Shown here: positions 27,231 through 40,588 of the stretch, piece after piece
Position numbering within the stretch: the first letter of the stretch is position 1
Layout: the number at the start of each line of letters is the position of its first letter
Program-made: the position numbers and the translations under genes
Source: Streptacidiphilus melanogenes
GTDB lineage: Bacteria > Actinomycetota > Actinomycetes > Streptomycetales > Streptomycetaceae
NCBI RefSeq assembly: GCF_000787835.1
Contig: NZ_BBPP01000019.1
Coordinates: forward strand, 12,804-76,803
Length of the DNA: 64,000 bases
Reading direction: 5' to 3'
Notes under the pieces: model-generated
What the model was told of the DNA's origin: nothing
Seen by the model: the letters and a program-made list of their open reading frames with translations, nothing else
Database searches by the model: none

Positions 27231-27280
27231 GTTCAGGCTGGTCGGGGCTGGTCGGGGCTGGTCGGGCTAGTTCGGGCTGA
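27231..27280 (-). repeat. Decamer tandem repeat spanning the end of the Lon-N gene
   Basis: Five related decamers (GTTCAGGCTG, GTCGGGGCTG twice, GTCGGGCTAG, TTCGGGCTGA) lie in tandem. The stop codon of the Lon-N-domain gene (27267-27269) falls inside the array. Confidence 0.65.
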
Positions 27281-27977
27281 AAGCCTGGCGGGTCAGTTCC
27301 ACGGCCGGGAGGGAGGGGAGCTTGGCCAGGACCGCGGCCTCGCGGCGCAGCAGGCGGAGCTCCGCGCGGAGCCGGTCGCTGGCGGAGCCGGCCGCGAGCA
27401 GCCGCTGCTTGTCGCCGGTGTCCAGCACGGACGCCGCCGCGACCAGGTAGGAGAGGATGTTCGGGTCGTCCGGCAGCTCCCGCTCGCCGGCGACGGTGGT
27501 CTCCTGCGCGCCGGCGAGACGCTTGCGGTAGGTGCGGAAGACCCGTTCCACCCCGGCGGCCAGGACCTTCGCCTCGGGCCCGGTCTCCTCGGGGACGTCC
27601 TCGACCTCGGCGGTCAGGTAGGGGCCCGTCGCGTCGATGGACAGGACCCGGAAACGCGTCGTGCCGGTGGCGATCAGCTCGTAGCGGCCGTCGCGGTGCG
27701 ACTGCAGCTGGGCGATCTCCGCGACGCAGCCGATCTCGAACAGCGCCCGGTGCGGGTCCGGCCCGAGCCCGGCCAGCGCCGGGGAGGCGGCGTCGACTCC
27801 GGTCGGCGCGACCTCGCGGCCGTCGCGGATCGCGACGACACCGAAGCGGTGCGGCTCCGGCTGGGCGGTCAGGTCGGCCATCAGCCGGCGGTAGCGCTCC
27901 TCGAACACGTGGAGGGGGAGCACCAGCCCCGGGTAGAGCACCGAGCCCAGCGGGAAGAGGGGGAGCCGTTCCGTCAC
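27267..27977 (-). CDS. Lon N-terminal-domain protein (LON peptidase substrate-binding domain only)
   Basis: The 236-residue protein consists of the Lon N-terminal (PUA-like) domain with no ATPase or protease part. It starts with TERLPLFPLGSVLYPGLVLPLHVFEERYR (first part PLFPLGSVLYPGLVLPLHVF) and continues with ELIATGTTRFRVLSI. Such single-domain proteins are common in actinobacteria; their job is unknown, although substrate recognition has been suggested. GTG 27977 has a -10-like TACGCT 8 bases upstream (27991-27986), so the gene may be leaderless; TTG 27986 is another start in frame. It is divergent from the his cluster. Confidence 0.88.
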   Translation of the reverse strand: MTERLPLFPLGSVLYPGLVLPLHVFEERYRRLMADLTAQPEPHRFGVVAIRDGREVAPTGVDAASPALAGLGPDPHRALFEIGCVAEIAQLQSHRDGRYELIATGTTRFRVLSIDATGPYLTAEVEDVPEETGPEAKVLAAGVERVFRTYRKRLAGAQETTVAGERELPDDPNILSYLVAAASVLDTGDKQRLLAAGSASDRLRAELRLLRREAAVLAKLPSLPAVELTRQAFSPN

Positions 27978-28027
27978 AGTGCGCAAGCGTAAGGGCTACC
28001 GGCGGGTCGCCGTGCCGCGGCTTCGGT

Positions 28028-28130
28028 GCCCGTACCGGGTCGCGCTCGGGGCAGCTCGCCGGTACGGGCGTCCGGGGGTCTCCGGTTCGGGGACCGGAGA
28101 CCTCATCCACGCTGCCCCCGTCGCGGGGGC
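28028..28130. ncRNA. Candidate structured RNA or regulatory element: three consecutive hairpins
   Basis: Three perfect stems lie in a row: GCCCGTACCGG/CCGGTACGGGC (28028-28038 and 28059-28069), GGTCTCCGGT/ACCGGAGACC (28077-28086 and 28093-28102) and GCCCCCG/CGGGGGC (28114-28120 and 28124-28130). Neither flanking gene ends here, because both are transcribed away from the region, so ordinary gene-end terminators are not expected. A small RNA gene, a cis-acting structure or a repeat relic are all possible. The strand is undetermined and no known RNA family was recognised. Confidence 0.35.
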
Positions 28131-28238
28131 CCGGCGAGCCCGGCGCGGCCGAACGTGTCGTCGGTCACGATGCGGTGCGCTCCCGGGCCGTCACGGGCGG
28201 TCCCGGGATGATGATGTCACCGCGAGTCTCAGGACACG

Positions 28239-28253
28239 TATCAGAGAGTGATA
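28239..28253. promoter_or_regulatory. Palindrome upstream of hisD
   Basis: TATCA-GAGAG-TGATA is a perfect 5-bp inverted repeat about 45 bases upstream of the hisD start and upstream of the predicted -10. It could bind a repressor or activator of the his cluster. Confidence 0.4.
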
Positions 28254-28282: not shown

Positions 28283-28288
28283 TAGACT
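28283..28288 (+). promoter_or_regulatory. -10-like TAGACT of hisD
   Basis: TAGACT ends 7 bases before GTG 28296. A weak -35 (TCGGCA, 28258-28263) lies 19 bases upstream. The arrangement suggests a leaderless his transcript. Confidence 0.5.
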
Positions 28289-28295
28289 TGACAGC

Positions 28296-29603
28296 GTGAT
28301 TTCTCGAATCGACCTCCGCAGCTCCACCGAGGACCCGCGCGCCGTGCTGCCGCGCGCCGAGCTCGATGTCGAGGCCGCCCTGGAAAAGGTGCGGCCGATC
28401 TGCGAGGACGTCCACCATCGTGGCGTCGAGGCGCTGATCGAGATCACGGAGCGCTTCGACGGGGTTCGGCCGACCGACATCCGCGTGCCCAAGGCGACGA
28501 TCACCGCCGCACTGGAGACGCTGGACCCCGCCGTCCGGGCCGCGCTGGAGGAGTCGATCCGCCGCGCCCGCCTGGTGCACCGCGAGCAGCGCCGTACCGA
28601 CCACACCACCCAGGTGGTGCCCGGCGGCACCGTCACCGAGCGCTGGGTGCCGGTCGAGCGCGTCGGCCTCTACGTGCCGGGCGGCCTGGCCGTCTACCCG
28701 TCCTCGGTCGTCATGAACGTCGTCCCGGCCCAGGAGGCCGGGGTCGCTTCCCTCGCCGTGACCTCCCCGCCGCAGAAGGAGTTCGGCGGTCTGCCGCACC
28801 CGACGATCCTGGCGGCGTGCGCGCTGCTCGGCGTCGACGAGGTGTACGCCGTCGGCGGCGCCCAGGCGATCGCGATGTTCGCCTACGGCGCGGGCGAGTG
28901 CCGTCCGGTCAACCTGGTCACCGGCCCCGGCAACATCTGGGTCGCCGCGGCCAAGCGGCTGCTCAAGGGCCGGATCGGCATCGACGCCGAGGCCGGGCCG
29001 ACGGAGATCGCGATCCTGGCGGACGCCACTGCGGACCCGCGTCACGTCGCCGCCGACATGATCAGCCAGGCCGAGCACGACCCGATGGCCGCCGCCGTGC
29101 TGGTCACCGACTCCGCTGCGCTGGCCGAGGCCGTCGAGGCCGAGCTGCCCGCGCAGGTCGAGGCGACCAAGCACAGCGAGCGGATCACCACCGCGCTGGC
29201 CGGTCCGCAGTCCGGGATCGTGCTGGTGCGCGACCTGGAGCAGGGGCTCGAGGTCGTCAACGCCTACGCGGCCGAGCACCTGGAGATCCAGACCGCCGAC
29301 GCCGAGGCGGTCGCCGCGCGCGTGGTCAACGCGGGCGCGGTCTTCGTCGGCCCGTTCGCGCCCGTGTCGCTCGGCGACTACGCGGCCGGGTCCAACCACG
29401 TCCTGCCCACCGGCGGCTGCGCCTGCCACTCCTCGGGGCTCTCCGTCCAGTCCTTCCTGCGCGGCATCCATGTGGTCAGCTACGACCGCGACGCCCTGGC
29501 CGAGGTGGCCGGGCACGTGGTCACGCTCGCCAACGCGGAGGACCTGCCGGGCCATGGCGATGCCATTCGTGCCCGCTTCGACTGGACGGTGCCCAATCAG
29601 TGA
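28296..29603 (+). CDS. hisD: Histidinol dehydrogenase
   Basis: HisD oxidises L-histidinol to L-histidine with two NAD+, the last two steps of the pathway. The 435-residue protein has the typical [51 protein letters not shown] and [11 protein letters not shown] motifs, and SQAEHDP carries a zinc/catalytic histidine. GTG 28296 gives [10 protein letters not shown], as in other streptomycete HisD proteins; a longer frame to 28248 has no support. No Shine-Dalgarno is present and TAGACT precedes the start by 7 bases. hisC overlaps the 3' end by 4 bases. Confidence 0.96.
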
Positions 29604-40550: not shown

Positions 40551-40588
40551 CGCCGGTGCCCGGCCGCCGAAGCGGCCGGGCACCGGCG
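40551..40588. terminator. Bidirectional terminator between CAP and chitinase genes
   Basis: CGCCGGTGCCCGGCCGC (40551-40567) and its exact complement (40572-40588) form a 17-bp stem around a CGAA loop. It lies in the 61-bp gap between two convergent genes and can serve both. Confidence 0.85.

Follow-up and report, generated by a model that had tools for sequence, protein, structure and literature searches.

The 6C RNA is an actinobacterial small RNA with C-rich loops on its hairpins, a short and GC-rich molecule that contains two of them. The RNA that we predict upstream of lonN (the gene for a LON substrate-binding-domain protein) resembles it in being short and GC-rich, with two hairpins and an exposed C-rich loop, but it has no Rfam match, an unrelated sequence and a narrow distribution. 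A second parallel is offered by the terminators of Streptomyces: Term-seq studies report that these frequently do without a U tract and form long, stable stems (PMC8269248, PMC12207403). The conserved hairpin of our locus, designated H1, has the long GC-rich stem of such U-less (I-shaped) terminators, and in related genomes the very same arms are found behind stop codons. H1 differs from these terminators in that no coding gene ends at it, its loop is longer, conserved and equipped with an inner stem, and lonN's own promoter comes after it in the direction of lonN. Attenuator-type 5′ leaders share with the element the succession of a promoter, a hairpin and a same-strand gene, with possible termination before the gene. 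Unlike such leaders, the predicted RNA shows no leader peptide or competing antiterminator, and lonN is provided with a promoter of its own. The sequences that seem complementary to the H1 loop fall in the promoter predicted for this RNA and not in the RNA itself, and neither Peterkaempfera nor the third carrier genus (g3, one genome) has kept them. The kind of element is known, and the family formed by the second hairpin, H2, together with H1 appears to be undescribed.

Three hairpins between lonN and hisD

The window (the whole stretch of 64,000 nucleotides that was analysed) contains the divergent genes lonN and hisD. For the gap between them, a first-pass annotation had described three perfect hairpins with stems of 11, 10 and 7 bp within 103 nt. 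Direct checking of the window letters places all three inverted repeats at 28028–28130, and the domains PF02190 and PF00815 agree with its calls of a Lon-N-domain gene and hisD on either side. Its description of both genes as leaderless is plausible, as each start codon has a −10-like hexamer close to it. The features of the locus are:

27267–27977, minus strand: lonN, LON substrate-binding-domain protein (PF02190, LON_substr_bdg), GTG start at 27977
27986–27991, minus strand: −10-like hexamer of lonN, TACGCT (TAATCT or TACTCT in relatives), conserved across H1-bearing Streptacidiphilus
28028–28102, minus strand: predicted transcript of ~75 nt, deduced from the P1 boxes and H1
28028–28069, minus strand: H1, the conserved hairpin GCCCGTACCGG-CGAGCTGCCCCGAGCGCGAC-CCGGTACGGGC, with a perfect 11-bp stem (28028–28038/28059–28069) and a 20-nt loop, which holds an inner 3-bp stem (GCT/AGC) and a GCCCCG loop
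28077–28102, minus strand: H2, 5′ hairpin of the predicted RNA, with a perfect 10-bp stem (28077–28086/28093–28102) and a 6-nt loop, its pairing kept in five close relatives only
28109–28114, minus strand: P1 −10-like box CAGCGT, identical in seven Streptacidiphilus (CAGGGT in Peterkaempfera and g3)
28114–28130, no strand assigned: H3, with a perfect 7-bp stem (28114–28120/28124–28130) and a 3-nt loop, within the P1 spacer, in a stretch of 58% identity
28132–28137, minus strand: P1 −35-like box TCGCCG (TCGC[C/T]G; TGGCGG or TGGCCC in other genera)
28296–29603, plus strand: hisD (PF00815, Histidinol_dh), GTG start, with a −10 (TAGACT) at 28283–28288

Each stem size alone is unremarkable for 64 kb of the window's composition, as shuffled sequence of that length yields ~172 stems of at least 7 bp, 3.5 of at least 10 bp and 1.0 of at least 11 bp. 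The trio within 103 nt was met in none of 20 whole-window shuffles (a count made post hoc), and on each strand the fold of the 121-nt segment is better than that of every one of 200 dinucleotide shuffles (z ~ −3.4). Compared with 4227 Rfam models, the window has no match at the gathering (curated) cut-off; a permissive search of the segment gives a snoRNA match only (E 4.2), which we judge to be chance.

Conservation and distribution of H1

Orthologues of the lonN–hisD gap were compared in 14 genomes of the same genus, together with lonN upstream regions from 60 further family genomes (48 read; 12 left out because automatic orientation was impossible). H1 is carried by 7 of the 14 Streptacidiphilus, all three Peterkaempfera and the single g3 genome; carriers with names are Streptacidiphilus neutrinimicus, S. 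pinicola, S. anmyonensis, S. fuscans, S. jiangxiensis, S. sp. ASG 303 and Peterkaempfera griseoplana. The P. griseoplana record agrees in sequence with genome G044, and the group of that genome (g11), which also includes the ASG 303 match G023, is accordingly taken to be Peterkaempfera. With up to 3 mismatches allowed, no H1 is found in the remainder of the 298 family genomes; it is missing from half of the Streptacidiphilus and from every Streptomyces-like genus in the sample. On a tree of the lonN protein this pattern needs three changes, and is compatible with one gain and two losses.

Among the seven Streptacidiphilus, identity to the window is 97% in the −35 box, 58% in the spacer/H3 stretch, 100% in the −10 box, 78% in H2 and 98% in H1 (arms and 20-nt loop alike); between H1 and the lonN −10 it is 60%. 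Across all 11 carriers, 33 columns of the aligned H1 are invariant, including most of the apical GCTGCC.CGAGCG, and the H1 fold is recovered in every genome (−29.9 kcal/mol for 46 nt in the window, z −4.2). The comparative signal thus separates the three hairpins, which are evidently not one unit, as the first-pass annotation had presented them, and it points to H1 as the real signal. H3, which overlaps the predicted promoter spacer, is judged incidental because its stretch is so little conserved. The stem conservation that the annotation had named as a test therefore holds for H1, for H2 in near relatives only, and not for H3. The compensatory changes that it had also proposed to look for are absent from H1 across the carriers, because the stem hardly varies.

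In the arms of H2, three pairs vary unbroken, becoming or staying G-U on a minus-strand RNA (A-C on the plus strand), and the outermost pair is lost in three relatives. Hairpins of other sequence occupy the H2 position in two genomes (G009 and G004) and only small ones do so in Peterkaempfera, while no hairpin folds there in g3.

H1 has one copy per carrier genome (the window genome measures 8.77 Mb in 107 contigs), always at lonN, and no copy was found in phage and plasmid collections. We therefore reject a mobile or repeated element, and with it the earlier suggestion of a repeat relic. A class-wide covariance-model search gives just two weak matches outside the family (~35 bits), which look like chance or terminator-type matches. 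Pattern matches in Nonomuraea and Actinoplanes lack the outer stem. Inspection of the matches in Streptomyces-like genomes (32–40 bits, versus 78 for H1) shows that most of them are hairpins at gene ends which share the H1 arms, while two or more look like chance. A search with the H1 model ahead of lonN in other genera returns nothing convincing (best 20.5 bits, E 0.028, at L036, a locus around hisD rather than lonN).

Two loci may hold related features. The lonN–hisD gap of G003 (L020), a member of a Streptacidiphilus clade without the full element, contains CCGTACCGtctgcCCGGTACTG, a possible decayed H1. Upstream of lonN in G133 (L131, group g14), CAGCGTGG runs straight into a 10-bp hairpin (TGGCACCACC/GGTGGTGCCA) that is unrelated; the layout may be the same one built from another sequence.

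Promoter-like boxes upstream of H1

The two P1 boxes are exactly 17 nt apart in 11 of 11 genomes, while the sequence of their spacer drifts without a change in length. Positions of maximal information in the P1 block across these genomes are solely A2 and T6 of the −10 and T1 of the −35. The −35 is weak against TTGACA, and a standard scan with a simple sigma-70 model calls neither a promoter nor a terminator. From CAG[C/G]GT to H1 on the minus strand, the distance is 11–64 nt across the 11 genomes, with just 11 nt in g3.

Two pseudoknots or alternative folds of the H1 loop were considered and rejected: pairing of GGGGCAGC (plus strand) with GCTGCCCC at 28112–28119, and of CTCGCCGG with CCGGCGAG at 28131–28138. 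Both partners lie in a P1 box, outside the predicted RNA. The GGGGCAGC/GCTGCCCC complementarity is lost in G004 (L015) and in g3/Peterkaempfera, and the conservation is therefore better explained by the promoter.

Some 40 nt upstream of the P1 −10, at 28148–28162, a further block, which reads GGCCGAACGTGTC on the plus and GACACGTTCGGCC on the minus strand, is kept in most Streptacidiphilus carriers and g3; it is a possible activator or regulator site.

Linkage to lonN

H1 lies upstream of lonN in all 11 carriers, 45–165 nt before the start codon. Streptacidiphilus and g3 have hisD as the gene beyond it. None of the three Peterkaempfera genomes has hisD alongside: in one, a divergent ORF sits beside a regulator-like ORF, and in the other two the 3′ end of a different gene occupies the place. 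Since H1 stays by lonN in Peterkaempfera while hisD is elsewhere, the element goes with the lonN side and not with the his cluster. These genomes speak against the first-pass proposal of a his-cluster element, whether antisense or cis-acting, and we reject that reading. A coding reading is likewise rejected, as the sole plus-strand ORF starting at H1 (28026–28211) lacks a start codon in G002 and Peterkaempfera.

A −10 of the type TACGCT/TAATCT/TACTCT stands a few nucleotides before the GTG of lonN in genomes with and without H1 (e.g. g14), so the lonN promoter does not need H1.

On the hisD side, a dyad at 28239–28253 (TATCA-GAGAG-TGATA), ~45 nt upstream of the hisD start, looks like a his-cluster operator; it is kept in Streptacidiphilus carriers, and a related form, GTATCACGGA[CG]TGAAATG, occurs in many other family genomes.

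Stem arms at gene ends

The arms CCGTACCGG/CCGGTACGG also occur, with short or unrelated loops, at another 27 places in genomes of the family. A simple ORF call puts 23 of these no more than 100 nt downstream of a stop codon, and 19 no more than 40 nt, mostly between convergent genes, a placement that fits the U-poor terminators of Streptomyces (PMC8269248, PMC12207403). H1 is a stable GC-rich stem-loop and so has this property of U-less intrinsic terminators; the minus-strand bases past it are not U-rich. In the carrier genomes examined, no coding gene ends directly at H1. In H1, a stem of the terminator type thus comes together with a loop that is conserved and a promoter-like element of its own.

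Elsewhere in the window, at 40551–40588, a perfect 17-bp hairpin with a 4-nt loop follows a stop codon by 8 nt, ahead of a convergent gene, and is a typical U-less bidirectional terminator.

A candidate short RNA and its alternatives

The reading that we favour, and to which we give about an even chance, is that the minus strand of the segment encodes a short, structured RNA, which comprises H2 and then H1 and ends at the terminator-type H1. It is supported because constraint falls exactly on the −35, the −10 and H1 (97%, 100% and 98%) as against 58% in the spacer. The folding z-score of the predicted RNA ranges from −2.3 to −5.4 over all 11 genomes. Further support comes from the constant box spacing, the persistence of H1 in three genera beside changing neighbours, the minus-strand G-U pairs of H2, the gene-end placement of the same arms at other loci, and the gain-and-loss pattern on the lonN tree. 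From this arrangement we infer transcription, its ends, termination at H1 and a mode of action as follows. RNA polymerase would start from P1 (−35 at 28137–28132, −10 at 28114–28109), probably near 28102 (7 nt past the −10), and the RNA would end at or just past H1. The resulting ~75 nt would fold into H2 and then H1, where transcription would mostly stop at a U-less stem of the type used at gene ends in the family. The product would be a two-hairpin small RNA, or essentially a single hairpin in the third genus, whose conserved C-rich apical loop GCUGCCCCGAGC probably acts through base pairing or protein binding. Read-through past H1 would enter lonN, so that a variant in which the element works as a lonN attenuator stays close to this model. 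The best reading of the comparative evidence is thus a lineage-restricted small RNA gene or an attenuated lonN leader, unrelated to his regulation. The earlier proposal of a small RNA gene would accordingly be right for H2 and H1 on the minus strand, with H3 left outside the unit.

Between a small RNA acting in trans and a terminated leader acting in cis, the constant link to lonN speaks for cis, while the lack of conservation from H1 to lonN, together with the separate promoter of lonN, points to an independent unit. Several points weigh against the favoured reading. The H1 stem offers no covariation, the minus-strand bases past it are not U-rich, the standard scan calls neither terminator nor promoter, and many of the sampled relatives lack the element. 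The short gap from the −10 to H1 in g3 counts against two hairpins, as the RNA there would be little more than one, and constant linkage to lonN would be equally expected of a lonN leader or an operator. More tentatively, and at somewhat less than an even chance, we propose a new small regulatory RNA family of ~45–105 nt in part of Streptacidiphilus, Peterkaempfera and one related genus, in which the invariant C-rich loop of a terminator-like hairpin would be the working part, controlling lonN or distant mRNAs. If transcribed, the segment would give an RNA family that is absent from Rfam and adjoins a widespread gene, in an acid-tolerant actinomycete group for which our literature search found no small-RNA literature. 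The locus also shows that a hairpin of gene-end type can stay almost unchanged, its loop as well, at a distance from where any coding gene ends; in GC-rich genomes, where U tracts are missing, such a hairpin can help to recognise short RNA genes.

The first alternative, which we regard as unlikely yet the most serious, is that H1 lies in a full-length 5′ leader of a lonN mRNA from P1, where it would terminate nothing and would stabilise the 5′ end or regulate lonN, with the leaderless promoter giving a second transcript. H1 and P1 do stay by lonN in 11 of 11 genomes while the other neighbour changes, and in g3 H1 would sit near the 5′ end of the RNA. Yet the stretch from H1 to lonN is conserved neither in sequence (60%) nor in length (45–165 nt), lonN has a −10 to itself whether or not H1 is present, and the same arms elsewhere are placed like terminators.

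Less probable is a DNA operator, in which H1 would be a 42-bp dyad for a regulator of lonN, acting upstream of the lonN promoter. Its position upstream of the lonN −10 would suit this role, and arms that hardly vary are expected of a protein-binding dyad no less than of an RNA stem. The operator retains some probability because an invariant stem cannot show covariation, and becomes less likely because the 20-bp spacer, which forms an inner stem-loop, is as conserved as the arms and boxes lie upstream. Moreover, the distance from H1 to lonN varies by 120 nt, each genome has one such site only, and a promoter reading through H1 would be left unexplained.

Slightly less probable again is a mere terminator or insulator that blocks antisense transcription between two divergent genes. 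H1 shares its arms with the gene-end hairpins of the family and resembles the 17-bp U-less hairpin at 40551–40588, but a mere terminator needs no invariant loop, and the P1 boxes would go unexplained.

That all three hairpins arose by chance from a GC content of 75% is very improbable: single stems of such size are expected in shuffled 64 kb, and this is probably the right account of H3, but it is refuted for H1, which is nearly unchanged over three genera in an otherwise drifting gap.
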